A stretch of 64,000 nucleotides of DNA, from assembly GCF_040807025.1 (NCBI RefSeq), contig NC_090952.1, forward strand, positions 17,047,068 to 17,111,067, written 5' to 3'. Position 1 is the stretch's first letter. Every line of letters starts with the position of its first letter. Below the pieces are notes generated by a model. It was not told the DNA's origin. It ran no database searches and saw only the letters and a program-made list of their open reading frames with translations. The position numbers and the translations under genes are program-made. This document shows positions 22,578-47,891 of this stretch, piece by piece. This DNA is from Struthio camelus. Its lineage: Eukaryota > Chordata > Aves > Struthioniformes > Struthionidae.

Positions 22578-22583
22578 TTTATT
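22578..22583 (-). terminator. AATAAA poly(A) signal, array gene copy 1
   Basis: AATAAA on the minus strand, 394 bases past the stop codon, followed about 25 nt on by a GT-rich stretch (CGTGTGAGGGTGGTGTTTCC). This is a normal cleavage-site arrangement and supports the gene's strand and 3' end. Confidence 0.75.
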
Positions 22584-22977
22584 GCCCCCGTTGCCTCCCC
22601 GTGCTGGTGGCTGTGTGCGAGGAAGGCGCCGGCCCGAGACGGAGGAGCGCGGTGCGGGCAGGCGGGGAGGAGGGCCGGTGCGGTGGCCTGGTGTCGGGGC
22701 AGGCTCTTGCTTTGCGGGCGCGCGCTGGAGCAGGCGCTGGGGCTGGGCAGCGGCAGCAGGCTCTTTGCGTGTTGTCCGGCGGAGTCGTGGGTGTGCGAGC
22801 CGGTGAGTTTGTGGGCAAAGGGGCCGGTGCTTCGCCGGGGCTCTGCTGGGCTCAGGCTGACGTGTTTTGGAGGGCCAGCGTTGCTCTCGTTGTGCCTCAG
22901 CGGCTCTGATGCCCGTTTGCCAGAGAAGGGCCCCAAAGTCGGCGTCAGCGTGCCCAGCCGCCCGGCCTGCCGCCCGC

Positions 22978-25116
22978 TCAGGCCTCGTCGCTGGTGGGTG
23001 GTTCGGGTCCGTCTGAGCCAGGCGCGCCCGCGCTCGTGTTGTGCTCGTCCCGCTCTGTGGCGCTGAAAGGGAAGCAGTGGTTGCGTGCAGTAGCTTTCTG
23101 AAGGGAATATTGCCCAGCCGCAAAGGAAAGGGAGCGGGAGACTAGGTCTGTAAGCCCACAAAGAGGCCGCCAAAGCCCGCGTGCCCTTGAAAGGGGTGCA
23201 GGATAATCTGCCAAACGTGTCTTGTGCTTTTGCGGTGGTGCGTACCTGTCCAGAGAAGCGCTTCTGCTGAAGTCGTCCGAGTCCGGCGTAGGAGGCGGGG
23301 AGAGAAGAAAAAGGCCACCGTATGGACAGTCCTCGTCATCGTCCCAGGTGCTGCAGAGCTCTATGCTTGCTGTGCTCGGGGAAGCACACCTGGAGCAGGC
23401 ACGCTGCAGGCTCGTGGGAAGCTGTGAATAATGACGACGCGTCAGGGGAGGAGCGTTATGTGGGTCCGAGTTTGACGAGGGGAAGGTTGGGAGGGACTCG
23501 CTCGGCTGGAGCGTTTTGTGCCGGAGGCAGAAGAGAACTCACCTGCTGGCAGTGGCCAAGGGTCTGCAGAGCGGATGCCTCGACGTCGTTCTCTGGAGAC
23601 CTAGGAACGGCAGAGAGAGGTGTTACTTGTCCTTTGGAGCGGAAGACTAGCAGCGCGTTGCCTTTCCGTAGGCTAAAGCCAAGCCCTTTGCGCGTCCTAG
23701 TGGGGAACGCGTCCTTTGTCCCGTTTGCCAAGGAGAGCGCCTCCGAGACTAGCAGGGCTGGGAGTCTGTGGTCAGGTATGGCGCCTGTAGAAGGGGTGAA
23801 AGTGCCAGCGTGGGAGCTTTCTGGGAAGCCTTGACAGTACAGGGAGGCTGAAGGGGAGCACTTTGTGCAGCTGCGTAAAAGCCGCTTTGCAGTTGTGCTG
23901 TTCCTTCTGCCTGGCCACGAGAGCGGCAGGGCAAGAGAGGACGCCAGCGAAGGGCGCTAGCTAGTTGGATTTAACGCGTTTAAGAGTCATGCCTGGAAGT
24001 CCTTCAGCATCTGTATTTGGGGGCCTGTTGAGGGCAGCTGTAGGCTTCCCGGCCGCTCCGAGGGGTGGCCGAGACCTGGACGGAGGTGAGCCCTTGGCTG
24101 TGGCTTTGTGCCCATGTTTGTGCTGTCCGCCAGGTGTGGAGCAGGAGGTTCAGCGCTCCCAGGGAGTTGCCCTGGGTGGAGCCTGACTCATGCTGCGAGT
24201 GGCTAAAGCTAGGGACCTGCCCACGTGGGGAGCTGCTTTGCTACCTATCCCTTGGGAAGGGAGGTGACTTTTCAAAGTTACTTTTCTTTGCCGGTCTTGA
24301 GTCGGCAGGCAAGCCAAACGCAGCACGTGAAGACGACCACAGCAGCGATGAGCGTCAGAGTGTTTGCGACGATGATGATGGCGGTGTGATTTAGAACGCC
24401 CGGGTCATCCTCTTCAAAGCCGCTGAGGAAGGTTACTGCAAAATAACGGGCAGACAGGAGAGTTTATATGAAAGGTGCGTGCTGTGGTAGGTCAGAGAGA
24501 GGAGGAGGAGGGGGAGGCTGAAGAAAGAAGAGCCCCAGCAGAGCGGCACGTGCTTTTCTGTTGTGGGGACATGATTTCCCAGCACGGGCAGGATGCCGTG
24601 CGGTGTAGGAGTTGAGGGCCGGAGCACTGGGGAAAGAGTGCCGTCCTTCTCCTCTCCCCTCTGTTCCTTGTGGTGGAGTTGCTCCTGCTGTCCTGGCGTG
24701 TCCTTGCTGCAGTGGGAAGAAGGGGGAAGGAGGAGCCTGTTGTCATCAGCAAGACGGAGAAGTGCCGGGAGGAGGGTTGGCAGGTGCTTTTGTGTCCCCA
24801 GGGAGGGCAGCATGGGAGGGCGGCGCAGGCGGCTTTGGAAAGCCGCGTCTGTGCCCGAGAGCTCCTTCTAAAGCGTGCTCGGCTGTGAAAGGGACGCGTC
24901 TGTTCTCGCGGTGCCGGCAGGTGCTCCTAGGCGCCAGCGGAAGCGCTGGCTTCCCCCTGGAAATTCCTCCTTAGCGAATGTTAGTTGGGGGAGAGGAGGT
25001 TTTACGTTGGAGCGCGTACCTTCAGACGACGCTGAAGCCTCTCTTTCCTCCGGGATGGGGAAGGCTCGTGCGAAAGCACAAAGCCAGAGGCACACCAAGG
25101 CAGAGCAGCGAGCCAT
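22978..25116 (-). CDS. Unrecognised small type I membrane protein, five exons, array copy 1
   Basis: Minus-strand exons: 25020-25116, 24282-24435, 23543-23600, 23246-23358, 22978-23062. Every intron is GT-AG and phases chain (1, 2, 0, 2) to 507 bases, 168 residues. The ATG has a good Kozak context (GACATGG). Residues 1-18 are a signal peptide (MARCSALVCLWLCAFARA). Residues 19-51 form an acidic ectodomain with N-glycosylation site NHT at 48-50. Residues 52-76 are one transmembrane helix, then RLKTGKEK, so the C-terminus should be cytoplasmic. The tail has WDDDED at 108-113, SPPPTPDSDDF at 123-133, RSAS at 135-138, and ends PPTSDEA. The exon 4 acceptor is the weak point: the stronger CTGCAG site (exon from 23350) is in frame only if exon 3 is skipped, giving 146 residues. 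Family unrecognised; SALQT after the helix recalls TMEM154, weakly. Confidence 0.75.
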
Positions 25117-25196
25117 GTCTGCTGGTACTGCCAAAGCCGGGTGCGCAAATGAGGCGCGCCGGGCAAGGGGGGCCCTGGGTTGCCCTCGCAGTGCTG

Positions 25197-25204
25197 TGAC
25201 ATCA
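25197..25204 (-). promoter_or_regulatory. CRE-like motif upstream of array gene copy 1
   Basis: TGATGTCA on the gene's strand, one base from the CREB/CREM site TGACGTCA, about 80 bases upstream of the ATG in a CpG-rich, TATA-less region. A promoter role is inferred. Confidence 0.4.
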
Positions 25205-26796
25205 CAGATGGGCGGAGAGACCTTCTGAAGGTGTCATGAGATCCTCACAACGGGCAGCTGAGCGTGCGCGCGGCCTGCTGGCTCCTTGCACCTGGCAGTG
25301 AACAACTGCGCTGTCGGTGCCGCCCGCTCGCTCTTCTCCTCTGCGCTTGTCCTTAGTGCTACTTCGTGGAGAGATGGTCTTTCACGGAGCCAGGCAGGCT
25401 GGGCAGATGAGCCTGCGCAGGGCCTGCCTAAGACTGGGGCGGGTGCAGAGAGCGAGGCTAGAAGGCCATTGGGCTCGGTGCGTTTCACGGCAGTAAAACA
25501 AGAACCGCAGTCAAAGAATAGCCCTGTAAGGGAGCGTGTGAGTGGGTACCTCTCCTTTTTCCCCCGTGCCAGGCAAACGCTTCCCTTTCCCCAAAGAAAC
25601 GGAGGCCGCGGTGACCCTCCCGTTCCTTCTCGAGCGGCCACGCTGCCCCGGCAAGGCAGTGACCCCCCGGCCGAGCCCGGCCCCTGCCCGCACAGAGGAG
25701 GCAGCAAAACAAGTCCGCCTGGAGCTTCCTGGGCTGTGAGGGAGCCTGTGGGGGAGCCTGTCCCCTGCTGACTCCCCGGGGAGTGCACAGCTGCATTCAG
25801 GGCCGCGTCTCTGGCAGGGGTGGGAAGCGAAGGGGAGCGTCTCCAGAGGGAATTGTAGCCTGTGGGGCTCGAGCGTGTCCCAGCATGCCTTCCGCCAGGG
25901 TGAAAAGGCCGCTTGGCTGTGCGGGCTGCTGCGCTCTCAGCACAGATTGCTAAGGGGAGTGTAAGTGAGAGCTATGTCGGGGGGCACCTTTACTGGTAGG
26001 AAGTCTTTGCACGTCAGGGGAGTCCAGTGGGGCCCTTTCCACCATCGCGTCCCTGTCTTGCGCCTGTGCGTGTGCTGTTGGCAGTCACGCGGGCTTTTGA
26101 GGAACAGTGCTGCGCGCACAGACAGTGCTTGCTGTGCCTCAAGAGAAATGGCTGTGGCACAGCAGGAGAGAAAGGAGCAGCTCCAGAGCTGTGCCTGGGG
26201 ACACAGGCGGATGCTGCTTGTGCCGTGGTGCGTCCAGGGGAGGGCTGAAGGGTGAGCACCTTGTCTCTGGAGCAGGGTGCAACTGAACTGGGATGTGGGT
26301 AAGGCACAATTTTGTGGGCGTGGTGACATTTGGGGTGCAGGAAGTGGGTGTAGATGCATTTATGGCCTCCTCCTGGGATGTGTGCTGCCTGGTGGTGGGC
26401 GGTGGTGGGTTATTTTTCATGTTGCGATGGCTGGAAGGAGGTCTTGTTGGTCTGAGCACTTGGAGCGCTGGTGTGGAGGCGGTGTCTAGTGAAGACACGG
26501 TCAGCAGTTGGTTTGTTGCTTGTGGAGTTGCTGCTCGCATGAGGTGAGATGCTTGAGGGCAGAGAGGTGTTCTTGCAGACTGTGAGCGCAGGGCTTGGGC
26601 TTTTCGGCTGCTTTGTGTCACAAGCAGATACCCTGAGTCTCTCAGTTGCCCTCGGGTTGCAACGCAGCGTCAGTAGCAGTGTTGTCTGGGGAGCAGCTTG
26701 TGTGAGGCCTGGCTGCCCCAAGGAAGAGTGTGCGGAGCTGCTGGAGCAGAGCTGCACGCAAAGGTTGTGCTGGAAGGCATCGAGCCCTGGAGTAGT

Positions 26797-26905
26797 AGAG
26801 GTTGGAAGGGCCACCTGGAGGCCACCGAGTGCAGTGGCCTGCCCAAAGCAGGTCTACTTAGACCGGCTGGCCTCGTGCAGTCGAGTCTCCAACTGCCTGA
26901 GTCTG
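26797..26905 (-). mobile_element. CR1 LINE 3'-end relic in unit 1
   Basis: The plus strand reads AGAGGTTGGAAGGG, then GCCCAAAGCAGGT and CTTAGACCGGCTGG. This is the reverse complement of the 3' part of avian CR1 (consensus GAGGTTGGAAGGGACCTCTGG, then CCAAAGCAGGTTCACCTAGA). It is short, degraded and GC-shifted, so it predates the array amplification. Confidence 0.7.
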
Positions 26906-28109
26906 GGAAAAGCTGGCGTTCCTTCTTCACGGCATTGCAGTCGCTGGACCGCGTGGAGACTAACAGAGGTGGAGCGTGCGCTTTCGGCTCTTTGATGGTG
27001 TGATGTGCGAGTTGGTGCAGGGAGCAACGAAGCCGCGACCTCCTTGTGGAGAGGCCCCGGTGGCGCGGACAAGCTCTGCGGCTTGGTCCTCCTTTTCTCC
27101 AAGGGGCCGGGCTCCCAAAGCATCTGTGCGAGTCACGTAAGAAATGTGACCCTTTTTGCCAGGAGATGCAGGAGCAGGGGCGCTGTGTGGGTTCAGCAGC
27201 TATTTTCGAAGCCCTGTGCAGGGGTCTTTGGTTATTCTGCCACCGTGTGGCTGAGAAAAGGCCGTGGGCCGAGGTTTCTGCAGTTGGGGATGAGAGCGCG
27301 ATTCTCCGAGCAGGACCAGCCCAGCACGTCCTGGGGGGTCTCGCAAGGGCTGGCCGTGAGGTTTGGGCCTTGGCACAGCCTGCTGTCAGGGAAAGGGGCT
27401 TTGCAGCACTGGCCCCGCGGGCACGGTGGCGGAGTGCTGGGAAGGGACCCTGGGCTTGGCTTGGCGGAGCTGGGGCCCCTTTGGCAGCCGTGTGCGTGGG
27501 GGAGGGCACGGTGAGCGGCAGAGGAGGGCTGTCAGCCTGCCCGAGAGCTGCGCGCCACCGGGGCGCAGGCGGTGGCTGTGGCAGTGCGGTGGGCTTTGCT
27601 GCCCAGGCCGCGGGCCAGAGCACCCGCTGCCTTCGGCCCCAGAGCCATGGCGGGGCTCTGGCCATGCCCCGCGCGGCTGCTGCCGAGGGGCCCTGAGGCT
27701 TGGCTGCCGGGACGCTCTCCAGCCCCGCGCTAGAAAGCCCTGGGAGGCGAGTGCTGCTCGCACGGCCGCGGGAGGTGCGGAGCACGGAAAGGCAGCCAGC
27801 TGTTGGCAGGGTCACGGTGCTTCCCCGCAATGGCAGGTGGGCACCGAGTGCAGCGTGCCTGGGAGCCAGTGCGAAAGCCCAGGGAGAAAGCGCCGGGCTG
27901 CCACGGTGTGGGGCTGTGACGGGCATCCCCTGCCCTCCCTGTCGCCGTGGCGTGATCCTGGCCAAAGCCAGGCTTGGGCCCAGCTGTGCTGGTGCTGGAG
28001 CGTGTGTGAGTGAGTGAGATGTGTGCCCCAAGGCCTGGGCGTGGGTGAGAGCAGCTCATTGAGAGGAAACACCACCCTCACACGGCGTGAGCTCTGCCTC
28101 CTCTTGACC

Positions 28110-28115
28110 TTTATT
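28110..28115 (-). terminator. AATAAA poly(A) signal, array gene copy 2
   Basis: Same signal and GT-rich downstream element as in copy 1. Confidence 0.75.
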
Positions 28116-28509
28116 GCCCCCGTTGCCTCCCCGTGCTGGTGGCTGTGTGCGAGGAAGGCGCCGGCCCGAGACGGAGGAGCGCGGTGCGGGCAGGCGGGGA
28201 GGAGGGCCGGTGCGGTGGCCTGGTGTCGGGGCAGGCTCTTGCTTTGCGGGCGCGCGCTGGAGCAGGCGCTGGGGCTGGGCAGCGGCAGCAGGCTCTTTGC
28301 GTGTTGTCCGGCGGAGTCGTGGGTGTGCGAGCCGGTGAGTTTGTGGGCAAAGGGGCCGGTGCTTCGCCGGGGCTCTGCTGGGCTCTGGCTGACGTGTTTT
28401 GGAGGGCCAGCGTTGCTCTCGTTGTGCCTCAGCGGCTCTGATGCCCGTTTGCCAGAGAAGGGCCCCAAAGTCGGCGTCAGCGTGCCCAGCCGCCCGGCCT
28501 GCCGCCCGC

Positions 28510-30648
28510 TCAGGCCTCGTCGCTGGTGGGTGGTTCGGGTCCGTCTGAGCCAGGCGCGCCCGCGCTCGTGTTGTGCTCGTCCCGCTCTGTGGCGCTGAAA
28601 GGGAAGCAGTGGTTGCGTGCAGTAGCTTTCTGAAGGGAATATTGCCCAGCCGCAAAGGAAAGGGAGCGGGAGACTAGGTCTGTAAGCCCACAAAGAGGCC
28701 GCCAAAGCCCGCGTGCCCTTGAAAGGGGTGCAGGATAATCTGCCAAACGTGTCTTGTGCTTTTGCGGTGGTGCGTACCTGTCCAGAGAAGCGCTTCTGCT
28801 GAAGTCGTCCGAGTCCGGCGTAGGAGGCGGGGAGAGAAGAAAAAGGCCACCGTATGGACAGTCCTCGTCATCGTCCCAGGTGCTGCAGAGCTCTATGCTT
28901 GCTGTGCTCGGGGAAGCACACCTGGAGCAGGCACGCTGCAGGCTCGTGGGAAGCTGTGAATAATGACGACGCGTCAGCGGAGGAGCGTTATGTGGGTCCG
29001 AGTTTGACGAGGGGAAGGTTGGGAGGGACTCGCTCGGCTGGAGCGTTTTGTGCCGGAGGCAGAAGAGAACTCACCTGCTGGCAGTGGCCAAGGGTCTGCA
29101 GAGCGGATGCCTCGACGTCGTTCTCTGGAGACCTAGGAACGGCAGAGAGAGGTGTTACTTGTCCTTTGGAGCGGAAGACTAGCAGCGCGTTGCCTTTCCG
29201 TAGGCTAAAGCCAAGCCCTTTGCGCGTCCTAGTGGGGAACGCGTCCTTTGTCCCGTTTGCCAAGGAGAGCGCCTCCGAGACTAGCAGGGCTGGGAGTCTG
29301 TGGTCAGGTATGGCGCCTGTAGAAGGGGTGAAAGTGCCAGCGTGGGAGCTTTCTGGGAAGCCTTGACAGTACAGGGAGGCTGAAGGGGAGCACTTTGTGC
29401 AGCTGCGTAAAAGCCGCTTTGCAGTTGTGCTGTTCCTTCTGCCTGGCCACGAGAGCGGCAGGGCAAGAGAGGACGCCAGCGAAGGGCGCTAGCTAGTTGG
29501 ATTTAACGCGTTTAAGAGTCATGCCTGGAAGTCCTTCAGCATCTGTATTTGGGGGCCTGTTGAGGGCAGCTGTAGGCTTCCCGGCCGCTCCGAGGGGTGG
29601 CCGAGACCTGGACGGAGGTGAGCCCTTGGCTGTGGCTTTGTGCCCATGTTTGTGCTGTCCGCCAGGTGTGGAGCAGGAGGTTCAGCGCTCCCAGGGAGTT
29701 GCCCTGGGTGGAGCCTGACTCATGCTGCGAGTGGCTAAAGCTAGGGACCTGCCCACGTGGGGAGCTGCTTTGCTACCTATCCCTTGGGAAGGGAGGTGAC
29801 TTTTCAAAGTTACTTTTCTTTGCCGGTCTTGAGTCGGCAGGCAAGCCAAACGCAGCACGTGAAGACGACCACAGCAGCGATGAGCGTCAGAGTGTTTGCG
29901 ACGATGATGATGGCGGTGTGATTTAGAACGCCCGGGTCATCCTCTTCAAAGCCGCTGAGGAAGGTTACTGCAAAATAACGGGCAGACAGGAGAGTTTATA
30001 TGAAAGGTGCGTGCTGTGGTAGGTCAGAGAGAGGAGGAGGAGGGGGAGGCTGAAGAAAGAAGAGCCCCAGCAGAGCGGCACGTGCTTTTCTGTTGTGGGG
30101 ACATGATTTCCCAGCACGGGCAGGATGCCGTGCGGTGTAGGAGTTGAGGGCCGGAGCACTGGGGAAAGAGTGCCGTCCTTCTCCTCTCCCCTCTGTTCCT
30201 TGTGGTGGAGTTGCTCCTGCTGTCCTGGCGTGTCCTTGCTGCAGTGGGAAGAAGGGGGAAGGAGGAGCCTGTTGTCATCAGCAAGACGGAGAAGTGCCGG
30301 GAGGAGGGTTGGCAGGTGCTTTTGTGTCCCCAGGGAGGGCAGCATGGGAGGGCGGCGCAGGCGGCTTTGGAAAGCCGCGTCTGTGCCCGAGAGCTCCTTC
30401 TAAAGCGTGCTCGGCTGTGAAAGGGACGCGTCTGTTCTCGCGGTGCCGGCAGGTGCTCCTAGGCGCCAGCGGAAGCGCTGGCTTCCCCCTGGAAATTCCT
30501 CCTTAGCGAATGTTAGTTGGGGGAGAGGAGGTTTTACGTTGGAGCGCGTACCTTCAGACGACGCTGAAGCCTCTCTTTCCTCCGGGATGGGGAAGGCTCG
30601 TGCGAAAGCACAAAGCCAGAGGCACACCAAGGCAGAGCAGCGAGCCAT
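28510..30648 (-). CDS. Unrecognised small type I membrane protein, array copy 2
   Basis: Same five-exon model: 30552-30648, 29814-29967, 29075-29132, 28778-28890, 28510-28594. I saw no coding-exon difference from copy 1; its private variant (28978) is intronic. Complete with its own start region and poly(A) signal, so it should be as functional as any other copy. Confidence 0.75.
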
Positions 30649-30728
30649 GTCTGCTGGTACTGCCAAAGCCGGGTGCGCAAATGAGGCGCGCCGGGCAAGG
30701 GGGGCCCTGGGTTGCCCTCGCAGTGCTG

Positions 30729-30736
30729 TGACATCA
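30729..30736 (-). promoter_or_regulatory. CRE-like motif upstream of array gene copy 2
   Basis: Same octamer and spacing as in copy 1. Confidence 0.4.
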
Positions 30737-32328
30737 CAGATGGGCGGAGAGACCTTCTGAAGGTGTCATGAGATCCTCACAACGGGCAGCTGAGCGTGCG
30801 CGCGGCCTGCTGGCTCCTTGCACCTGGCAGTGAACAACTGCGCTGTCGGTGCCGCCCGCTCGCTCTTCTCCTCTGCGCTTGTCCTTAGTGCTACTTCGTG
30901 GAGAGATGGTCTTTCACGGAGCCAGGCAGGCTGGGCAGATGAGCCTGCGCAGGGCCTGCCTAAGACTGGGGCGGGTGCAGAGAGCGAGGCTAGAAGGCCA
31001 TTGGGCTCGGTGCGTTTCACGGCAGTAAAACAAGAACCGCAGTCAAAGAATAGCCCTGTAAGGGAGCGTATGAGTGGGTACCTCTCCTTTTTCCCCCGTG
31101 CCAGGCAAACGCTTCCCTTTCCCCAAAGAAACGGAGGCCGCGGTGACCCTCCCGTTCCTTCTCGAGCGGCCACGCTGCCCCGGCAAGGCAGTGACCCCCC
31201 GGCCGAGCCCGGCCCCTGCCCGCACAGAGGAGGCAGCAAAACAAGTCCGCCTGGAGCTTCCTGGGCTGTGAGGGAGCCTGTGGGGGAGCCTGTCCCCTGC
31301 TGACTCCCCGGGGAGTGCACAGCTGCATTCAGGGCCGCGTCTCTGGCAGGGGTGGGAAGCGAAGGGGAGCGTCTCCAGAGGGAATTGTAGCCTGTGGGGC
31401 TCGAGCGTGTCCCAGCATGCCTTCCGCCAGGGTGAAAAGGCCGTTTGGCTGTGCGGGCTGCTGCGCTCTCAGCACAGATTGCTAAGGGGAGTGTAAGTGA
31501 GAGCTATGTCGGGGGGCACCTTTACTGGTAGGAAGTCTTTGCACGTCAGGGGAGTCCAGTGGGGCCCTTTCCACCATCGCGTCCCTGTCTTGCGCCTGTG
31601 CGTGTGCTGTTGGCAGTCACGCGGGCTTTTGAGGAACAGTGCTGCGCGCACAGACAGTGCTTGCTGTGCCTCAAGAGAAATGGCTGTGGCACAGCAGGAG
31701 AGAAAGGAGCAGCTCCAGAGCTGTGCCTGGGGACACAGGCGGATGCTGCTTGTGCCGTGGTGCGTCCAGGGGAGGGCTGAAGGGTGAGCACCTTGTCTCT
31801 GGAGCAGGGTGCAACTGAACTGGGATGTGGGTAAGGCACAATTTTGTGGGCGTGGTGACATTTGGGGTGCAGGAAGTGGGTGTAGATGCATTTATGGCCT
31901 CCTCCTGGGATGTGTGCTGCCTGGTGGTGGGCGGTGGTGGGTTATTTTTCATGTTGCGATGGCTGGAAGGAGGTCTTGTTGGTCTGAGCACTTGGAGCGC
32001 TGGTGTGGAGGCGGTGTCTAGTGAAGACACGGTCAGCAGTTGGTTTGTTGCTTGTGGAGTTGCTGCTCGCATGAGGTGAGATGCTTGAGGGCAGAGAGGT
32101 GTTCTTGCAGACTGTGAGCGCAGGGCTTGGGCTTTTCGGCTGCTTTGTGTCACAAGCAGATACCCTGAGTCTCTCAGTTGCCCTCGGGTTGCAACGCAGC
32201 GTCAGTAGCAGTGTTGTCTGGGGAGCAGCTTGTGTGAGGCCTGGCTGCCCCAAGGAAGAGTGTGCGGAGCTGCTGGAGCAGAGCTGCGCGCAAAGGTTGT
32301 GCTGGAAGGCATCGAGCCCTGGAGTAGT

Positions 32329-32437
32329 AGAGGTTGGAAGGGCCACCTGGAGGCCACCGAGTGCAGTGGCCTGCCCAAAGCAGGTCTACTTAGACCGGCT
32401 GGCCTCGTGCAGTCGAGTCTCCAACTGCCTGAGTCTG
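32329..32437 (-). mobile_element. CR1 LINE 3'-end relic in unit 2
   Basis: Same relic as in unit 1, copied with the unit. Confidence 0.7.
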
Positions 32438-33641
32438 GGAAAAGCTGGCGTTCCTTCTTCACGGCATTGCAGTCGCTGGACCGCGTGGAGACTAACAGAG
32501 GTGGAGCGTGCGCTTTCGGCTCTTTGATGGTGTGATGTGCGAGTTGGTGCAGGGAGCAACGAAGCCGCGACCTCCTTGTGGAGAGGCCCCGGTGGCGCGG
32601 ACAAGCTCTGCGGCTTGGTCCTCCTTTTCTCCAAGGGGCCGGGCTCCCAAAGCATCTGTGCGAGTCACGTAAGAAATGTGACCCTTTTTGCCAGGAGATG
32701 CAGGAGCAGGGGCGCTGTGTGGGTTCAGCAGCTATTTTCGAAGCCCTGTGCAGGGGTCTTTGGTTATTCTGCCACCGTGTGGCTGAGAAAAGGCCGTGGG
32801 CCGAGGTTTCTGCAGTTGGGGATGAGAGCGCGATTCTCCGAGCAGGACCAGCCCAGCACGTCCCGGGGGGTCTCGCAAGGGCTGGCCGTGAGGTTTGGGC
32901 CTTGGCACAGCCTGCTGTCAGGGAAAGGGGCTTTGCAGCACTGGCCCCGCGGGCACGGTGGCGGAGTGCTGGGAAGGGACCCTGGGCTTGGCTTGGCGGA
33001 GCTGGGGCCCCTTTGGCAGCCGTGTGCGTGGGGGAGGGCACGGTGAGCGGCAGAGGAGGGCTGTCAGCCTGCCCGAGAGCTGCGCGCCACCGGGGCGCAG
33101 GCGGTGGCTGTGGCAGTGCGGTGGGCTTTGCTGCCCAGGCCGCGGGCCAGAGCACCCGCTGCCTTCGGCCCCAGAGCCATGGCGGGGCTCTGGCCATGCC
33201 CCGCGCGGCTGCTGCCGAGGGGCCCTGAGGCTTGGCTGCCGGGACGCTCTCCAGCCCCGCGCTAGAAAGCCCTGGGAGGCGAGTGCTGCTCGCACGGCCG
33301 CGGGAGGTGCGGAGCACGGAAAGGCAGCCAGCTGTTGGCAGGGTCACGGTGCTTCCCCGCAATGGCAGGTGGGCACCGAGTGCAGCGTGCCTGGGAGCCA
33401 GTGCGAAAGCCCAGGGAGAAAGCGCCGGGCTGCCACGGTGTGGGGCTGTGACGGGCATCCCCTGCCCTCCCTGTCGCCGTGGCGTGATCCTGGCCAAAGC
33501 CAGGCTTGGGCCCAGCTGTGCTGGTGCTGGAGCGTGTGTGAGTGAGTGAGATGTGTGCCCCAAGGCCTGGGCGTGGGTGAGAGCAGCTCATTGAGAGGAA
33601 ACACCACCCTCACACGGCGTGAGCTCTGCCTCCTCTTGACC

Positions 33642-33647
33642 TTTATT
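33642..33647 (-). terminator. AATAAA poly(A) signal, array gene copy 3
   Basis: Same signal and GT-rich downstream element as in copy 1. Confidence 0.75.
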
Positions 33648-34041
33648 GCCCCCGTTGCCTCCCCGTGCTGGTGGCTGTGTGCGAGGAAGGCGCCGGCCCG
33701 AGACGGAGGAGCGCGGTGCGGGCAGGCGGGGAGGAGGGCCGGTGCGGTGGCCTGGTGTCGGGGCAGGCTCTTGCTTTGCGGGCGCGCGCTGGAGCAGGCG
33801 CTGGGGCTGGGCAGCGGCAGCAGGCTCTTTGCGTGTTGTCCGGCGGAGTCGTGGGTGTGCGAGCCGGTGAGTTTGTGGGCAAAGGGGCCGGTGCTTCGCC
33901 GGGGCTCTGCTGGGCTCTGGCTGACGTGTTTTGGAGGGCCAGCGTTGCTCTCGTTGTGCCTCAGCGGCTCTGATGCCCGTTTGCCAGAGAAGGGCCCCAA
34001 AGTCGGCGTCAGCGTGCCCAGCCGCCCGGCCTGCCGCCCGC

Positions 34042-36180: not shown

Positions 36181-36260
36181 GTCTGCTGGTACTGCCAAAG
36201 CCGGGTGCGCAAATGAGGCGCGCCGGGCAAGGGGGGCCCTGGGTTGCCCTCGCAGTGCTG

Positions 36261-36268
36261 TGACATCA
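36261..36268 (-). promoter_or_regulatory. CRE-like motif upstream of array gene copy 3
   Basis: Same octamer and spacing as in copy 1. Confidence 0.4.
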
Positions 36269-37860
36269 CAGATGGGCGGAGAGACCTTCTGAAGGTGTCA
36301 TGAGATCCTCACAACGGGCAGCTGAGCGTGCGCGCGGCCTGCTGGCTCCTTGCACCTGGCAGTGAACAACTGCGCTGTCGGTGCCGCCCGCTCGCTCTTC
36401 TCCTCTGCGCTTGTCCTTAGTGCTACTTCGTGGAGAGATGGTCTTTCACGGAGCCAGGCAGGCTGGGCAGATGAGCCTGCGCAGGGCCTGCCTAAGACTG
36501 GGGCGGGTGCAGAGAGCGAGGCTAGAAGGCCATTGGGCTCGGTGCGTTTCACGGCAGTAAAACAAGAACCGCAGTCAAAGAATAGCCCTGTAAGGGAGCG
36601 TATGAGTGGGTACCTCTCCTTTTTCCCCCGTGCCAGGCAAACGCTTCCCTTTCCCCAAAGAAACGGAGGCCGCGGTGACCCTCCCGTTCCTTCTCGAGCG
36701 GCCACGCTGCCCCGGCAAGGCAGTGACCCCCCGGCCGAGCCCGGCCCCTGCCCGCACAGAGGAGGCAGCAAAACAAGTCCGCCTGGAGCTTCCTGGGCTG
36801 TGAGGGAGCCTGTGGGGGAGCCTGTCCCCTGCTGACTCCCCGGGGAGTGCACAGCTGCATTCAGGGCCGCGTCTCTGGCAGGGGTGGGAAGCGAAGGGGA
36901 GCGTCTCCAGAGGGAATTGTAGCCTGTGGGGCTCGAGCGTGTCCCAGCATGCCTTCCGCCAGGGTGAAAAGGCCGTTTGGCTGTGCGGGCTGCTGCGCTC
37001 TCAGCACAGATTGCTAAGGGGAGTGTAAGTGAGAGCTATGTCGGGGGGCACCTTTACTGGTAGGAAGTCTTTGCACGTCAGGGGAGTCCAGTGGGGCCCT
37101 TTCCACCATCGCGTCCCTGTCTTGCGCCTGTGCGTGTGCTGTTGGCAGTCACGCGGGCTTTTGAGGAACAGTGCTGCGCGCACAGACAGTGCTTGCTGTG
37201 CCTCAAGAGAAATGGCTGTGGCACAGCAGGAGAGAAAGGAGCAGCTCCAGAGCTGTGCCTGGGGACACAGGCGGATGCTGCTTGTGCCGTGGTGCGTCCA
37301 GGGGAGGGCTGAAGGGTGAGCACCTTGTCTCTGGAGCAGGGTGCAACTGAACTGGGATGTGGGTAAGGCACAATTTTGTGGGCGTGGTGACATTTGGGGT
37401 GCAGGAAGTGGGTGTAGATGCATTTATGGCCTCCTCCTGGGATGTGTGCTGCCTGGTGGTGGGCGGTGGTGGGTTATTTTTCATGTTGCGATGGCTGGAA
37501 GGAGGTCTTGTTGGTCTGAGCACTTGGAGCGCTGGTGTGGAGGCGGTGTCTAGTGAAGACACGGTCAGCAGTTGGTTTGTTGCTTGTGGAGTTGCTGCTC
37601 GCATGAGGTGAGATGCTTGAGGGCAGAGAGGTGTTCTTGCAGACTGTGAGCGCAGGGCTTGGGCTTTTCGGCTGCTTTGTGTCACAAGCAGATACCCTGA
37701 GTCTCTCAGTTGCCCTCGGGTTGCAACGCAGCGTCAGTAGCAGTGTTGTCTGGGGAGCAGCTTGTGTGAGGCCTGGCTGCCCCAAGGAAGAGTGTGCGGA
37801 GCTGCTGGAGCAGAGCTGCGCGCAAAGGTTGTGCTGGAAGGCATCGAGCCCTGGAGTAGT

Positions 37861-37969
37861 AGAGGTTGGAAGGGCCACCTGGAGGCCACCGAGTGCAGTG
37901 GCCTGCCCAAAGCAGGTCTACTTAGACCGGCTGGCCTCGTGCAGTCGAGTCTCCAACTGCCTGAGTCTG
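37861..37969 (-). mobile_element. CR1 LINE 3'-end relic in unit 3
   Basis: Same relic as in unit 1, copied with the unit. Confidence 0.7.
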
Positions 37970-39173
37970 GGAAAAGCTGGCGTTCCTTCTTCACGGCATT
38001 GCAGTCGCTGGACCGCGTGGAGACTAACAGAGGTGGAGCGTGCGCTTTCGGCTCTTTGATGGTGTGATGTGCGAGTTGGTGCAGGGAGCAACGAAGCCGC
38101 GACCTCCTTGTGGAGAGGCCCCGGTGGCGCGGACAAGCTCTGCGGCTTGGTCCTCCTTTTCTCCAAGGGGCCGGGCTCCCAAAGCATCTGTGCGAGTCAC
38201 GTAAGAAATGTGACCCTTTTTGCCAGGAGATGCAGGAGCAGGGGCGCTGTGTGGGTTCAGCAGCTATTTTCGAAGCCCTGTGCAGGGGTCTTTGGTTATT
38301 CTGCCACCGTGTGGCTGAGAAAAGGCCGTGGGCCGAGGTTTCTGCAGTTGGGGATGAGAGCGCGATTCTCCGAGCAGGACCAGCCCAGCACGTCCCGGGG
38401 GGTCTCGCAAGGGCTGGCCGTGAGGTTTGGGCCTTGGCACAGCCTGCTGTCAGGGAAAGGGGCTTTGCAGCACTGGCCCCGCGGGCACGGTGGCGGAGTG
38501 CTGGGAAGGGACCCTGGGCTTGGCTTGGCGGAGCTGGGGCCCCTTTGGCAGCCGTGTGCGTGGGGGAGGGCACGGTGAGCGGCAGAGGAGGGCTGTCAGC
38601 CTGCCCGAGAGCTGCGCGCCACCGGGGCGCAGGCGGTGGCTGTGGCAGTGCGGTGGGCTTTGCTGCCCAGGCCGCGGGCCAGAGCACCCGCTGCCTTCGG
38701 CCCCAGAGCCATGGCGGGGCTCTGGCCGTGCCCCGCGCGGCTGCTGCCGAGGGGCCCTGAGGCTTGGCTGCCGGGACGCTCTCCAGCCCCGCGCTAGAAA
38801 GCCCTGGGAGGCGAGTGCTGCTCGCACGGCCGCGGGAGGTGCGGAGCACGGAAAGGCAGCCAGCTGTTGGCAGGGTCACGGTGCTTCCCCGCAATGGCAG
38901 GTGGGCACCGAGTGCAGCGTGCCTGGGAGCCAGTGCGAAAGCCCAGGGAGAAAGCGCCGGGCTGCCACGGTGTGGGGCTGTGACGGGCATCCCCTGCCCT
39001 CCCTGTCGCCGTGGCGTGATCCTGGCCAAAGCCAGGCTTGGGCCCAGCTGTGCTGGTGCTGGAGCGTGTGTGAGTGAGTGAGATGTGTGCCCCAAGGCCT
39101 GGGCGTGGGTGAGAGCAGCTCATTGAGAGGAAACACCACCCTCACACGGCGTGAGCTCTGCCTCCTCTTGACC

Positions 39174-39179
39174 TTTATT
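39174..39179 (-). terminator. AATAAA poly(A) signal, array gene copy 4
   Basis: Same signal and GT-rich downstream element as in copy 1. Confidence 0.75.
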
Positions 39180-39573
39180 GCCCCCGTTGCCTCCCCGTGC
39201 TGGTGGCTGTGTGCGAGGAAGGCGCCGGCCCGAGACGGAGGAGCGCGGTGCGGGCAGGCGGGGAGGAGGGCCGGTGCGGTGGCCTGGTGTCGGGGCAGGC
39301 TCTTGCTTTGCGGGCGCGCGCTGGAGCAGGCGCTGGGGCTGGGCAGCGGCAGCAGGCTCTTTGCGTGTTGTCCGGCGGAGTCGTGGGTGTGCGAGCCGGT
39401 GAGTTTGTGGGCAAAGGGGCCGGTGCTTCGCCGGGGCTCTGCTGGGCTCTGGCTGACGTGTTTTGGAGGGCCAGCGTTGCTCTCGTTGTGCCTCAGCGGC
39501 TCTGATGCCCGTTTGCCAGAGAAGGGCCCCAAAGTCGGCGTCAGCGTGCCCAGCCGCCCGGCCTGCCGCCCGC

Positions 39574-41712
39574 TCAGGCCTCGTCGCTGGTGGGTGGTTC
39601 GGGTCCGTCTGAGCCAGGCGCGCCCGCGCTCGTGTTGTGCTCGTCCCGCTCTGTGGCGCTGAAAGGGAAGCAGTGGTTGCGTGCAGTAGCTTTCTGAAGG
39701 GAATATTGCCCAGCCGCAAAGGAAAGGGAGCGGGAGACTAGGTCTGTAAGCCCACAAAGAGGCCGCCAAAGCCCGCGTGCCCTTGAAAGGGGTGCAGGAT
39801 AATCTGCCAAACGTGTCTTGTGCTTTTGCGGTGGTGCGTACCTGTCCAGAGAAGCGCTTCTGCTGAAGTCGTCCGAGTCCGGCGTAGGAGGCGGGGAGAG
39901 AAGAAAAAGGCCACCGTATGGACAGTCCTCGTCATCGTCCCAGGTGCTGCAGAGCTCTATGCTTGCTGTGCTCGGGGAAGCACACCTGGAGCAGGCACGC
40001 TGCAGGCTCGTGGGAAGCTGTGAATAATGACGACGCGTCAGGGGAGGAGCGTTATGTGGGTCCGAGTTTGACGAGGGGAAGGTTGGGAGGGACTCGCTCG
40101 GCTGGAGCGTTTTGTGCCGGAGGCAGAAGAGAACTCACCTGCTGGCAGTGGCCAAGGGTCTGCAGAGCGGATGCCTCGACGTCGTTCTCTGGAGACCTAG
40201 GAACGGCAGAGAGAGGTGTTACTTGTCCTTTGGAGCGGAAGACTAGCAGCGCGTTGCCTTTCCGTAGGCTAAAGCCAAGCCCTTTGCGCGTCCTAGTGGG
40301 GAACGCGTCCTTTGTCCCGTTTGCCAAGGAGAGCGCCTCCGAGACTAGCAGGGCTGGGAGTCTGTGGTCAGGTATGGCGCCTGTAGAAGGGGTGAAAGTG
40401 CCAGCGTGGGAGCTTTCTGGGAAGCCTTGACAGTACAGGGAGGCTGAAGGGGAGCACTTTGTGCAGCTGCGTAAAAGCCGCTTTGCAGTTGTGCTGTTCC
40501 TTCTGCCTGGCCACGAGAGCGGCAGGGCAAGAGAGGACGCCAGCGAAGGGCGCTAGCTAGTTGGATTTAACGTGTTTAAGAGTCATGCCTGGAAGTCCTT
40601 CAGCATCTGTATTTGGGGGCCTGTTGAGGGCAGCTGTAGGCTTCCCGGCCGCTCCGAGGGGTGGCCGAGACCTGGACGGAGGTGAGCCCTTGGCTGTGGC
40701 TTTGTGCCCATGTTTGTGCTGTCCGCCAGGTGTGGAGCAGGAGGTTCAGCGCTCCCAGGGAGTTGCCCTGGGTGGAGCCTGACTCATGCTGCGAGTGGCT
40801 AAAGCTAGGGACCTGCCCACGTGGGGAGCTGCTTTGCTACCTATCCCTTGGGAAGGGAGGTGACTTTTCAAAGTTACTTTTCTTTGCCGGTCTTGAGTCG
40901 GCAGGCAAGCCAAACGCAGCACGTGAAGACGACCACAGCAGCGATGAGCGTCAGAGTGTTTGCGACGATGATGATGGCGGTGTGATTTAGAACGCCCGGG
41001 TCATCCTCTTCAAAGCCGCTGAGGAAGGTTACTGCAAAATAACGGGCAGACAGGAGAGTTTATATGAAAGGTGCGTGCTGTGGTAGGTCAGAGAGAGGAG
41101 GAGGAGGGGGAGGCTGAAGAAAGAAGAGCCCCAGCAGAGCGGCACGTGCTTTTCTGTTGTGGGGACATGATTTCCCAGCACGGGCAGGATGCCGTGCGGT
41201 GTAGGAGTTGAGGGCCGGAGCACTGGGGAAAGAGTGCCGTCCTTCTCCTCTCCCCTCTGTTCCTTGTGGTGGAGTTGCTCCTGCTGTCCTGGCGTGTCCT
41301 TGCTGCAGTGGGAAGAAGGGGGAAGGAGGAGCCTGTTGTCATCAGCAAGACGGAGAAGTGCCGGGAGGAGGGTTGGCAGGTGCTTTTGTGTCCCCAGGGA
41401 GGGCAGCATGGGAGGGCGGCGCAGGCGGCTTTGGAAAGCCGCGTCTGTGCCCGAGAGCTCCTTCTAAAGCGTGCTCGGCTGTGAAAGGGACGCGTCTGTT
41501 CTCGCGGTGCCGGCAGGTGCTCCTAGGCGCCAGCGGAAGCGCTGGCTTCCCCCTGGAAATTCCTCCTTAGCGAATGTTAGTTGGGGGAGAGGAGGTTTTA
41601 CGTTGGAGCGCGTACCTTCAGACGACGCTGAAGCCTCTCTTTCCTCCGGGATGGGGAAGGCTCGTGCGAAAGCACAAAGCCAGAGGCACACCAAGGCAGA
41701 GCAGCGAGCCAT
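39574..41712 (-). CDS. Unrecognised small type I membrane protein, array copy 4
   Basis: Exons 41616-41712, 40878-41031, 40139-40196, 39842-39954, 39574-39658. Coding sequence identical to copy 1 by eye; the variant at 40574 falls in the intron between exons 2 and 3. Confidence 0.75.
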
Positions 41713-41792
41713 GTCTGCTGGTACTGCCAAAGCCGGGTGCGCAAATGAGGCGCGCCGGGCAAGGGGGGCCCTGGGTTGCCCTCGCAGTGCTG

Positions 41793-41800
41793 TGACATCA
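41793..41800 (-). promoter_or_regulatory. CRE-like motif upstream of array gene copy 4
   Basis: Same octamer and spacing as in copy 1. Confidence 0.4.
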
Positions 41801-43392
41801 CAGATGGGCGGAGAGACCTTCTGAAGGTGTCATGAGATCCTCACAACGGGCAGCTGAGCGTGCGCGCGGCCTGCTGGCTCCTTGCACCTGGCAGTGAACA
41901 ACTGCGCTGTCGGTGCCGCCCGCTCGCTCTTCTCCTCTGCGCTTGTCCTTAGTGCTACTTCGTGGAGAGATGGTCTTTCACGGAGCCAGGCAGGCTGGGC
42001 AGATGAGCCTGCGCAGGGCCTGCCTAAGACTGGGGCGGGTGCAGAGAGCGAGGCTAGAAGGCCATTGGGCTCGGTGCGTTTCACGGCAGTAAAACAAGAA
42101 CCGCAGTCAAAGAATAGCCCTGTAAGGGAGCGTATGAGTGGGTACCTCTCCTTTTTCCCCCGTGCCAGGCAAACGCTTCCCTTTCCCCAAAGAAACGGAG
42201 GCCGCGGTGACCCTCCCGTTCCTTCTCGAGCGGCCACGCTGCCCCGGCAAGGCAGTGACCCCCCGGCCGAGCCCGGCCCCTGCCCGCACAGAGGAGGCAG
42301 CAAAACAAGTCCGCCTGGAGCTTCCTGGGCTGTGAGGGAGCCTGTGGGGGAGCCTGTCCCCTGCTGACTCCCCGGGGAGTGCACAGCTGCATTCAGGGCC
42401 GCGTCTCTGGCAGGGGTGGGAAGCGAAGGGGAGCGTCTCCAGAGGGAATTGTAGCCTGTGGGGCTCGAGCGTGTCCCAGCATGCCTTCCGCCAGGGTGAA
42501 AAGGCCGCTTGGCTGTGCGGGCTGCTGCGCTCTCAGCACAGATTGCTAAGGGGAGTGTAAGTGAGAGCTATGTCGGGGGGCACCTTTACTGGTAGGAAGT
42601 CTTTGCACGTCAGGGGAGTCCAGTGGGGCCCTTTCCACCATCGCGTCCCTGTCTTGCGCCTGTGCGTGTGCTGTTGGCAGTCACGCGGGCTTTTGAGGAA
42701 CAGTGCTGCGCGCACAGACAGTGCTTGCTGTGCCTCAAGAGAAATGGCTGTGGCACAGCAGGAGAGAAAGGAGCAGCTCCAGAGCTGTGCCTGGGGACAC
42801 AGGCGGATGCTGCTTGTGCCGTGGTGCGTCCAGGGGAGGGCTGAAGGGTGAGCACCTTGTCTCTGGAGCAGGGTGCAACTGAACTGGGATGTGGGTAAGG
42901 CACAATTTTGTGGGCGTGGTGACATTTGGGGTGCAGGAAGTGGGTGTAGATGCATTTATGGCCTCCTCCTGGGATGTGTGCTGCCTGGTGGTGGGCGGTG
43001 GTGGGTTATTTTTCATGTTGCGATGGCTGGAAGGAGGTCTTGTTGGTCTGAGCACTTGGAGCGCTGGTGTGGAGGCGGTGTCTAGTGAAGACACGGTCAG
43101 CAGTTGGTTTGTTGCTTGTGGAGTTGCTGCTCGCATGAGGTGAGATGCTTGAGGGCAGAGAGGTGTTCTTGCAGACTGTGAGCGCAGGGCTTGGGCTTTT
43201 CGGCTGCTTTGTGTCACAAGCAGATACCCTGAGTCTCTCAGTTGCCCTCGGGTTGCAACGCAGCGTCAGTAGCAGTGTTGTCTGGGGAGCAGCTTGTGTG
43301 AGGCCTGGCTGCCCCAAGGAAGAGTGTGCGGAGCTGCTGGAGCAGAGCTGCGCGCAAAGGTTGTGCTGGAAGGCATCGAGCCCTGGAGTAGT

Positions 43393-43501
43393 AGAGGTTG
43401 GAAGGGCCACCTGGAGGCCACCGAGTGCAGTGGCCTGCCCAAAGCAGGTCTACTTAGACCGGCTGGCCTCGTGCAGTCGAGTCTCCAACTGCCTGAGTCT
43501 G
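43393..43501 (-). mobile_element. CR1 LINE 3'-end relic in unit 4
   Basis: Same relic as in unit 1. The partial unit 5 stops before this point and has none. Confidence 0.7.
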
Positions 43502-44705
43502 GGAAAAGCTGGCGTTCCTTCTTCACGGCATTGCAGTCGCTGGACCGCGTGGAGACTAACAGAGGTGGAGCGTGCGCTTTCGGCTCTTTGATGGTGTGAT
43601 GTGCGAGTTGGTGCAGGGAGCAACGAAGCCGCGACCTCCTTGTGGAGAGGCCCCGGTGGCGCGGACAAGCTCTGCGGCTTGGTCCTCCTTTTCTCCAAGG
43701 GGCCGGGCTCCCAAAGCATCTGTGCGAGTCACGTAAGAAATGTGACCCTTTTTGCCAGGAGATGCAGGAGCAGGGGCGCTGTGTGGGTTCAGCAGCTATT
43801 TTCGAAGCCCTGTGCAGGGGTCTTTGGTTATTCTGCCACCGTGTGGCTGAGAAAAGGCCGTGGGCCGAGGTTTCTGCAGTTGGGGATGAGAGCGCGATTC
43901 TCCGAGCAGGACCAGCCCAGCACGTCCCGGGGGGTCTCGCAAGGGCTGGCCGTGAGGTTTGGGCCTTGGCACAGCCTGCTGTCAGGGAAAGGGGCTTTGC
44001 AGCACTGGCCCCGCGGGCACGGTGGCGGAGTGCTGGGAAGGGACCCTGGGCTTGGCTTGGCGGAGCTGGGGCCCCTTTGGCAGCCGTGTGCGTGGGGGAG
44101 GGCACGGTGAGCGGCAGAGGAGGGCTGTCAGCCTGCCCGAGAGCTGCGCGCCACCGGGGCGCAGGCGGTGGCTGTGGCAGTGCGGTGGGCTTTGCTGCCC
44201 AGGCCGCGGGCCAGAGCACCCGCTGCCTTCGGCCCCAGAGCCATGGCGGGGCTCTGGCCGTGCCCCGCGCGGCTGCTGCCGAGGGGCCCTGAGGCTTGGC
44301 TGCCGGGACGCTCTCCAGCCCCGCGCTAGAAAGCCCTGGGAGGCGAGTGCTGCTCGCACGGCCGCGGGAGGTGCGGAGCACGGAAAGGCAGCCAGCTGTT
44401 GGCAGGGTCACGGTGCTTCCCCGCAATGGCAGGTGGGCACCGAGTGCAGCGTGCCTGGGAGCCAGTGCGAAAGCCCAGGGAGAAAGCGCCGGGCTGCCAC
44501 GGTGTGGGGCTGTGACGGGCATCCCCTGCCCTCCCTGTCGCCGTGGCGTGATCCTGGCCAAAGCCAGGCTTGGGCCCAGCTGTGCTGGTGCTGGAGCGTG
44601 TGTGAGTGAGTGAGATGTGTGCCCCAAGGCCTGGGCGTGGGTGAGAGCAGCTCATTGAGAGGAAACACCACCCTCACACGGCGTGAGCTCTGCCTCCTCT
44701 TGACC

Positions 44706-44711
44706 TTTATT
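44706..44711 (-). terminator. AATAAA poly(A) signal, array gene copy 5
   Basis: Same signal and GT-rich downstream element as in copy 1. Confidence 0.75.
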
Positions 44712-45105
44712 GCCCCCGTTGCCTCCCCGTGCTGGTGGCTGTGTGCGAGGAAGGCGCCGGCCCGAGACGGAGGAGCGCGGTGCGGGCAGGCGGGGAGGAG
44801 GGCCGGTGCGGTGGCCTGGTGTCGGGGCAGGCTCTTGCTTTGCGGGCGCGCGCTGGAGCAGGCGCTGGGGCTGGGCAGCGGCAGCAGGCTCTTTGCGTGT
44901 TGTCCGGCGGAGTCGTGGGTGTGCGAGCCGGTGAGTTTGTGGGCAAAGGGGCCGGTGCTTCGCCGGGGCTCTGCTGGGCTCTGGCTGACGTGTTTTGGAG
45001 GGCCAGCGTTGCTCTCGTTGTGCCTCAGCGGCTCTGATGCCCGTTTGCCAGAGAAGGGCCCCAAAGTCGGCGTCAGCGTGCCCAGCCGCCCGGCCTGCCG
45101 CCCGC

Positions 45106-47247
45106 TCAGGCCTCGTCGCTGGTGGGTGGTTCGGGTCCGTCTGAGCCAGGCGCGCCCGCGCTCGTGTTGTGCTCGTCCCGCTCTGTGGCGCTGAAAGGGA
45201 AGCAGTGGTTGCGTGCAGTAGCTTTCTGAAGGGAATATTGCCCAGCCGCAAAGGAAAGGGAGCGGGAGACTAGGTCTGTAAGCCCACAAAGAGGCCGCCA
45301 AAGCCCGCGTGCCCTTGAAAGGGGTGCAGGATAATCTGCCAAACGTGTCTTGTGCTTTTGCGGTGGTGCGTACCTGTCCAGAGAAGCGCTTCTGCTGAAG
45401 TCGTCCGAGTCCGGCGTAGGAGGCGGGGAGAGAAGAAAAAGGCCACCGTATGGACAGTCCTCGTCATCGTCCCAGGTGCTGCAGAGCTCTATGCTTGCTG
45501 TGCTCGGGGAAGCACACCTGGAGCAGGCACGCTGCAGGCTCGTGGGAAGCTGTGAATAATGACGACGCGTCAGGGGAGGAGCGTTATGTGGGTCCGAGTT
45601 TGACGAGGGGAAGGTTGGGAGGGACTCGCTCGGCTGGAGCGTTTTGTGCCGGAGGCAGAAGAGAACTCACCTGCTGGCAGTGGCCAAGGGTCTGCAGAGC
45701 GGATGCCTCGACGTCGTTCTCTGGAGACCTAGGAACGGCAGAGAGAGGTGTTACTTGTCCTTTGGAGCGGAAGACTAGCAGCACGTTGCCTTTCCGTAGG
45801 CTAAAGCCAAGCCCTTTGCGCGTCCTAGTGGGGAACGCGTCCTTTGTCCCGTTTGCCAAGGAGAGCGCCTCCGAGACTAGCAGGGCTGGGAGTCTGTGGT
45901 CAGGTATGGCGCCTGTAGAAGGGGTGAAAGTGCCAGCGTGGGAGCTTTCTGGGAAGCCTTGACAGTACAGGGAGGCTGAAGGGGAGCACTTTGTGCAGCT
46001 GCGTAAAAGCCGCTTTGCAGTTGTGCTGTTCCTTCTGCCTGGCCACGAGAGCGGCAGGGCAAGAGAGGACGCCAGCGAAGGGCGCTAGCTAGTTGGATTT
46101 AACGTGTTTAAGAGTCATGCCTGGAAGTCCTTCAGCATCTGTATTTGGGGGCCTGTTGAGGGCAGCTGTAGGCTTCCCGGCCGCTCCGAGGGGTGGCCGA
46201 GACCTGGACGGAGGTGAGCCCTTGGCTGTGGCTTTGTGCCCATGTTTGTGCTGTCCGCCAGGTGTGGAGCAGGAGGTTCAGCGCTCCCAGGGAGTTGCCC
46301 TGGGTGGAGCCTGACTCATGCTGCGAGTGGCTAAAGCTAGGGACCTGCCCACGTGGGGAGCTGCTTTGCTACCTATCCCTTGGGAAGGGAGGTGACTTTT
46401 CAAAGTTACTTTTCTTTGCCGGTCTTGAGTCGGCAGGCAAGCCAAACGCAGCACGTGAAGACGACCACAGCAGCGATGAGCGTCAGAGTGTTTGCGACGA
46501 TGATGATGGCGGTGTGATTTAGAACGCCCGGGTCATCCTCTTCAAAGCCGCTGAGGAAGGTTACTGCAAAATAACGGGCAGACAGGAGAGTTTATATGAA
46601 AGGTGCGTGCTGTGGTAGGTCAGAGAGAGGAGGAGGAGGAGGGGGAGGCTGAAGAAAGAAGAGCCCCAGCAGAGCGGCACGTGCTTTTCTGTTGTGGGGA
46701 CATGATTTCCCAGCACGGGCAGGATGCCGTGCGGTGTAGGAGTTGAGGGCCGGAGCACTGGGGAAAGAGTGCCGTCCTTCTCCTCTCCCCTCTGTTCCTT
46801 GTGGTGGAGTTGCTCCTGCTGTCCTGGCGTGTCCTTGCTGCAGTGGGAAGAAGGGGGAAGGAGGAGCCTGTTGTCATCAGCAAGACGGAGAAGTGCCGGG
46901 AGGAGGGTTGGCAGGTGCTTTTGTGTCCCCAGGGAGGGCAGCATGGGAGGGCGGCGCAGGCGGCTTTGGAAAGCCGCGTCTGTGCCCGAGAGCTCCTTCT
47001 AAAGCGTGCTCGGCTGTGAAAGGGACGCGTCTGTTCTCGCGGTGCCGGCAGGTGCTCCTAGGCGCCAGCGGAAGCGCTGGCTTCCCCCTGGAAATTCCTC
47101 CTTAGCGAATGTTAGTTGGGGGAGAGGAGGTTTTACGTTGGAGCGCGTACCTTCAGACGACGCTGAAGCCTCTCTTTCCTCCGGGATGGGGAAGGCTCGT
47201 GCGAAAGCACAAAGCCAGAGGCACACCAAGGCAGAGCAGCGAGCCAT
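45106..47247 (-). CDS. Unrecognised small type I membrane protein, array copy 5
   Basis: Exons 47151-47247, 46410-46563, 45671-45728, 45374-45486, 45106-45190. The 3-bp insertion near 46630 lies in its first intron, so the frame is kept. About 625 bp of upstream sequence remains before the array ends, so any promoter lying farther out would be missing from this copy alone. Confidence 0.75.
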
Positions 47248-47327
47248 GTCTGCTGGTACTGCCAAAGCCGGGTGCGCAAATGAGGCGCGCCGGGCAAGGG
47301 GGGCCCTGGGTTGCCCTCGCAGTGCTG

Positions 47328-47335
47328 TGACATCA
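47328..47335 (-). promoter_or_regulatory. CRE-like motif upstream of array gene copy 5
   Basis: Same octamer and spacing as in copy 1; retained in the truncated unit. Confidence 0.4.
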
Positions 47336-47891
47336 CAGATGGGCGGAGAGACCTTCTGAAGGTGTCATGAGATCCTCACAACGGGCAGCTGAGCGTGCGC
47401 GCGGCCTGCTGGCTCCTTGCACCTGGCAGTGAACAACTGCGCTGTCGGTGCCGCCCGCTCGCTCTTCTCCTCTGCGCTTGTCCTTAGTGCTACTTCGTGG
47501 AGAGATGGTCTTTCACGGAGCCAGGCAGGCTGGGCAGATGAGCCTGCGCAGGGCCTGCCTAAGACTGGGGCGGGTGCAGAGAGCGAGGCTAGAAGGCCAT
47601 TGGGCTCGGTGCGTTTCACGGCAGTAAAACAAGAACCGCAGTCAAAGAATAGCCCTGTAAGGGAGCGTGTGAGTGGGTACCTCTCCTTTTTCCCCCGTGC
47701 CAGGCAAACGCTTCCCTTTCCCCAAAGAGACGGAGGCCGCGGTGACCCTCCCGTTCCTTCTCGAGCGGCCACGCTGCCCCGGCAAGGCAGTGACCCCCCG
47801 GCCGAGCCCGGCCCCTGCCCGCACAGAGGAAGCAGCAAAACAAGTCCGGTTGGAGTTTCCAGTGCTGTTTACAAGCGCAGACAGGGAAGCA

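Follow-up and report, generated by a model that had tools for sequence, protein, structure and literature searches.

In this article, I will discuss a tandem array of GC-rich units in the genome of Struthio camelus and the small gene that each of its units appears to encode. The array occupies positions 22313..47868 of a 64,000-nucleotide stretch of contig NC_090952.1 (the window, C11:17047068-17111067) and, on balance, it probably represents a complete and intact minus-strand gene for a type I membrane protein that has been amplified, with the whole array inserted into a long terminal repeat (LTR)-like repeat. Judging from the sequence, a real, recently amplified gene without a relative in Pfam or PDB is the most likely explanation.

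The array is composed of four full units of 5,532 bp, which start at 22313, 27845, 33377 and 38909 and follow each other head-to-tail at a spacing of 5,532 bp, and of a partial fifth unit at 44441-47868. The full units are 99.9-100% identical (2, 4 and 6 mismatches when the other three are compared with unit 2), and the partial fifth unit differs from unit 2 at 11 positions over 3.4 kb, six of which are clustered at its end. Measured in 2-kb steps, the GC content of the array is 60-67% and that of the flanks 31-43%, except for one CpG-rich step at 8001-10000; the observed/expected ratio of CpG is 0.39-0.88 (500-bp steps, 22001-28500) compared with 0.06-0.36 in the four steps directly to the left.

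A sequence-only reading of this DNA had proposed that each unit hides five minus-strand exons with GT-AG borders and compatible phases, and these exons are present, letter for letter, in all five units of the window, with a spliced frame that is open over 168 residues. In unit 1, exon 1 (25020..25116) supplies the ATG and a signal-peptide-like start; exon 2 (24282..24435, acceptor 10.6 bits) encodes an acidic stub, an NHT sequon and the membrane segment; exon 3 (23543..23600, acceptor 9.0 bits) ends at the donor CAG/GTGAGT, which outscores every other minus-strand donor of the unit; exon 4 lies at 23246..23421; and exon 5 (22978..23062, acceptor 6.6 bits) ends in TGA and has a weak coding score. 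The donors of exons 1-4 score 8.2, 7.5, 13.4 and 7.5 bits. One border needed correction, since the acceptor originally placed at 23358 scores -10.8 bits and the one at 23421 scores 6.5 bits, so that exon 4 probably starts at 23421; the shift of 63 nt keeps the same frame and adds 21 residues to give a 189-residue form. All five exons are equally intact on the minus strand in gene copies 2 to 5 (28510..30648, 34042..36180, 39574..41712 and 45106..47247), the low coordinate of exon 2 moving from 24282 to 29814, 35346, 40878 and 46410. The window holds five whole exon sets in its head-to-tail units, each of which is a whole gene insofar as the gene model is right.

Only five donors of at least 7 bits occur on the minus strand of a unit, all of them inside the 2.1-kb gene and four of them being those of the proposed exons, and the nine on the plus strand are scattered across the unit. 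In every one of the five exons, the codon score of the predicted frame is the highest among the three same-strand frames, with one antisense frame slightly above it in exon 1 (0.02 compared with -0.03), and the composition is coding-like (G at 0.38 in codon position 1, C at 0.46 in position 3). The earlier reading had also framed the gene between a cAMP response element (CRE)-like motif and a poly(A) signal, and both were recovered: TGATGTCA lies on the minus strand at 25197..25204, starting at 25204, 88 nt upstream of the ATG, and the only AATAAA on either strand of the unit lies at 22578..22583 on the minus strand, about 395 nt beyond the stop and followed about 26 nt further on by a GT-rich stretch. 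With its CRE-like element, its single AATAAA and the GT-rich stretch, the unit resembles a gene complete in itself.

The exon chain was also scored with a purpose-written gene finder that combines splice, start and codon scores and holds no topology information, its matrices and human codon table being re-weighted to G or C at third positions. The best minus-strand model on a single unit consists of exons 1-3 and scores 25.4 bits (its last exon, of 6 nt, is in my view an artefact), and this value was reached by none of 2000 sequences simulated for the two strands of the unit under second- and third-order Markov models (500 per strand and order), the simulated maximum being 20.8 bits; by this test, the claim that a chance origin is unlikely is borne out. 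On a two-unit stretch, the best model joins exons 1-3 of one unit to exons 2-3 of the following unit. A plus-strand gene was considered and dropped, its best model (10.2 bits) lying near the simulated mean of 10.1-10.6. Among 20 control strand-stretches from ten loci, the top four scored 108.6, 41.2, 27.2 and 26.7, which I take to be an ARF-type GTPase, a phosphatase, a CR1 reverse transcriptase and RBM41 exons, respectively, and the fifth scored 22.8.

By the hydropathy measure alone, the predicted protein has a 9-residue maximum of 2.7 at its N terminus and a 19-residue maximum of 2.5 further on, corresponding to a signal-like start and a strong membrane segment, a combination that appeared in 1 of 72,061 simulated windows, in none of 237 unspliced windows of the unit and, for the AT-richer flanks, in 4 of 1306. 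The predicted stub is short and acidic with one NHT sequon, and the 105 residues of the predicted tail include 20 acidic ones and 4 basic ones. The proposal of a small type I membrane protein is well supported at the level of prediction for exons 1-3 (exons 1 and 2 strong, exon 3 good), and exons 4 and 5 are plausible but weaker.

Both ends of the array abut pieces of the same LTR-like repeat. The left piece (21960..22310, plus strand) corresponds to about the first 350 bases of the repeat, and the first 342 bases of the right piece (47878..48749, plus strand) repeat 21970-22310 at 98%, so that two 342-bp copies stand directly on either side of the array. From 437 candidates for this repeat family, 40 were scored and eight relatives fetched; their alignments to the left piece start at 21955-21970 and end at 22276-22310, and those to the right piece start at 47878-47882 and end at 48726-48749. 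When the flanks are joined, all eight align in one piece across the join, which I read as a single element that the array has split, 342 bp of it being duplicated. None of the other 38 of the 40 scored members is more than 83% alike; contig C40, which may be the W chromosome, holds 13 of the 40 and C18 holds 12. The element is called LTR-like from its length, spread and look, without a family match. A target duplication of 342 bp seems long for an insertion. The duplicates differ by three substitutions and one gap once the doubtful first ~13 bases are excluded, and at an assumed bird neutral rate of ~2e-9 per site per year the insertion would perhaps be of the order of 2 million years old, with a wide error. 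Separately, the LTR-like element occurs seven times at C18:2607040-2640832 with a spacing of ~5.57 kb, all copies at 77%, which suggests a further tandem array carrying it.

Searches of the genome (1.45 Gb in 262 contigs) extended the five-fold amplification of the earlier reading: five copies lie in the window as described, and the assembly holds at least seven, the other two in a second array of ~1.8 units at C11:16520702-16530786, 0.54 Mb from the first. This second array contains two intact gene copies, differs from the first in where within the unit it begins and ends, and is not bordered by the LTR-like element. The 189-residue frame and the GT-AG dinucleotides are kept in seven of seven copies, which is weak evidence because the arrays are ~99.5% identical (26-30 mismatches over 8.9-10.1 kb between them, with fewer differences within an array). 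Units are closer to each other within an array than between arrays, the partial fifth unit being the exception. Of the 32 variant columns among the seven copies, two fall inside the corrected exons; each of these occurs at the second site alone and changes a residue (R to C and A to S). Diverged paralogues were looked for and rejected, as 35 of the 37 matches in the genome search are the five exons of the seven copies and the remaining two are weak (E 2.33 and 4.79). A 70-bp stretch directly right of the second array (L009:8831-8900) is ~84% like the unit near 22607-22674, and C8, C11 and C40 carry other short matches, to a different region of the unit.

Several observations weigh against the gene as proposed here, beginning with the scoring itself. 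CpG-rich islands score highly on both strands, as at 3001-9000 of the window (107.4 and 86.1), and there are further high scores on the minus strand of 9001-15000 (53.0) and, unexplained, near C11:16.507 Mb (34.7). Across 12 strand-stretches of the window flanks, scores above 25 bits were reached only on the two strands of 5533-11064 (51.0 and 51.6), which presumably holds a NUP62-like exon, the opposite-strand score being presumably a CpG-island false positive. A high score is therefore no proof by itself, and such false positives limit the weight of the finder; the fault does not obviously apply to the unit, in which GC is evenly high and the opposite strand gives scores like those of the simulations. 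The second difficulty is that an in-frame TAA at 24278-24280 overlaps the exon 2 donor, allowing an 84-residue product of two exons that ends directly after the membrane segment, with exons 3-5 being noise or a rarer isoform. The two-exon model alone scores 21.4 bits, above the simulated maximum (the forced model stopped about one base before the TAA, which hardly affects the score), and exons 4 and 5 lower the score, a forced five-exon model falling to 7.3 with the acceptor at 23421 and to -1.0 with that at 23358. Nevertheless, I consider this shorter product unlikely as the main one, given that the splice sites of exon 3 are good (9.0 and 13.4 bits), the three-exon core with its tiny terminal exon does better at 25.4, the predicted frame leads its strand in all five exons and the AATAAA lies beyond exon 5.

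The remaining points speak for the array as a non-coding GC-rich macrosatellite, in which the exon chain arose by chance or the gene no longer makes protein. The plus strand of the array is G-rich and T-rich with a GC skew of about +0.15 to +0.21 (2-kb steps), and transcribed strands are usually rich in G and T, so that the bias favors the strand opposite the predicted gene; the 50-codon window with the highest codon score in the unit is also a plus-strand one, antisense to exon 2 (0.427 compared with 0.334 for the best on the minus strand). Moreover, this is amplified GC-rich DNA for which the genome search gave no homologue apart from the seven copies, and the predicted protein, searched in its 168-residue form, has none in Pfam, where the sole match at E up to 1 was TrbK (E 0.12, 12.8 bits against a cut-off of 23.9), or in PDB, where the best E of 1.4 is not significant. 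Both coding variants are nonsynonymous, although they carry no signal of selection and are no evidence either way. On the other side stand the 0 of 2000 simulations that reach the score of the unit, the rarity of the predicted topology among simulated sequences and, more weakly for sequences this alike, the seven intact copies, and I regard the macrosatellite as quite improbable. Finally, the idea that the array is the interior of an endogenous retrovirus between its two LTRs is hardly credible and was rejected on the split-element geometry: one repeat family does lie directly on both sides of the array with pieces 98% alike, but the left piece breaks off near base 350 and the right one lacks the first bases, so that there is no complete LTR on each side but a single split element with a 342-bp overlap, as all eight relatives show, and the predicted gene has introns.

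A reading as structured RNA was dropped when an Rfam scan of the window returned no family at its gathering score, and of the eight stretches of viral contigs that fitted a pattern none was confirmed. To the left of the array lies a gene pair that I take, from reading the translations, to be RBM41 and NUP62CL-like, and the surroundings presumably contain CR1-like elements; a Pfam search of the flanking genes matched endonuclease domains alone, in one CR1-like stretch. Literature searches on FET1 and on NUP62CL/RBM41 found nothing on these subjects, and a quail copy-number list names NUP62CL among many genes.

Comparable arrangements exist elsewhere. Human macrosatellites with a gene per unit include D4Z4/DUX4 and CT47, which resemble the present array, by organization alone, in having a GC-rich unit of kilobase scale with one small gene. 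The predicted protein resembles FXYD-type and other small single-pass type I proteins in its signal, short acidic stub and one membrane segment, whereas the one Pfam match of its 168-residue form, at E up to 1, was to TrbK and lay below the cut-off of that family. A close parallel is chicken HINT1W, where a 5,648-bp unit of 53.6% GC with a complete gene is repeated in 52 copies in two clusters on the W chromosome (PMC9974502). The two systems share a similar unit size, a complete gene per unit, tandem arrangement, raised GC and two clusters, and they differ in that HINT1W encodes a known protein in 52 W copies (PMC9974502), whereas here seven copies were found on C11, with a GC content of 60-67%, a protein that was not recognized and an array inserted into a dispersed repeat. 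Testis-biased multicopy genes on chicken dot chromosomes are likewise amplified within satellite-like DNA (PMC9974502); in contrast, the array described here lies inside a 29.8-Mb contig with AT-richer flanks.

Bringing this together for the favored gene, each unit would carry a minus-strand gene that has at least two strong exons, and probably five in all, as well as a CRE-like promoter element and a poly(A) site. Its product would consist of a signal that can be cleaved off, an acidic stub bearing a single glycosylation sequon and one membrane helix, adding an acidic cytoplasmic tail only if exons 3-5 are used. The gene would have been amplified in tandem, the array would have been inserted, perhaps a few million years ago, into the LTR-like repeat beside the NUP62CL-like gene, duplicating 342 bp, and the units may since have been kept near-identical by unequal exchange or conversion. 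Of these elements, the sequence directly shows the array, the exons and their intact frames, the second site and the geometry of the insertion, and transcription, splicing, topology and homogenization are inferred. By analogy with other bird amplicons, such as the testis-biased ones and HINT1W of chicken, and otherwise only from the CRE-like element, one might tentatively suggest that the gene acts in the germline and that its copy number raises the dosage, at less than even chances. It is possible, if rather doubtful, that this is an undescribed bird gene family for a small membrane protein that was mobilized as a whole array into a dispersed LTR-like repeat within a few million years and amplified for dosage, possibly in germline conflict, and it is equally doubtful, on this same reading, that annotation missed the gene because its exons are short and GC-rich.

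The surprise is limited by the fact that a gene within a bird satellite-like unit is already known from HINT1W and the dot chromosomes (PMC9974502). Nevertheless, if the units are transcribed, they would amount to a whole gene that homology does not recognize, of which at least seven near-identical copies exist and which seems to have spread by the movement of an array, not one copy at a time. Furthermore, the split repeat is of use in dating the event and offers an exact empty site to look for in related birds, so that a young amplified gene can be tested directly for its age, copy number and expression.

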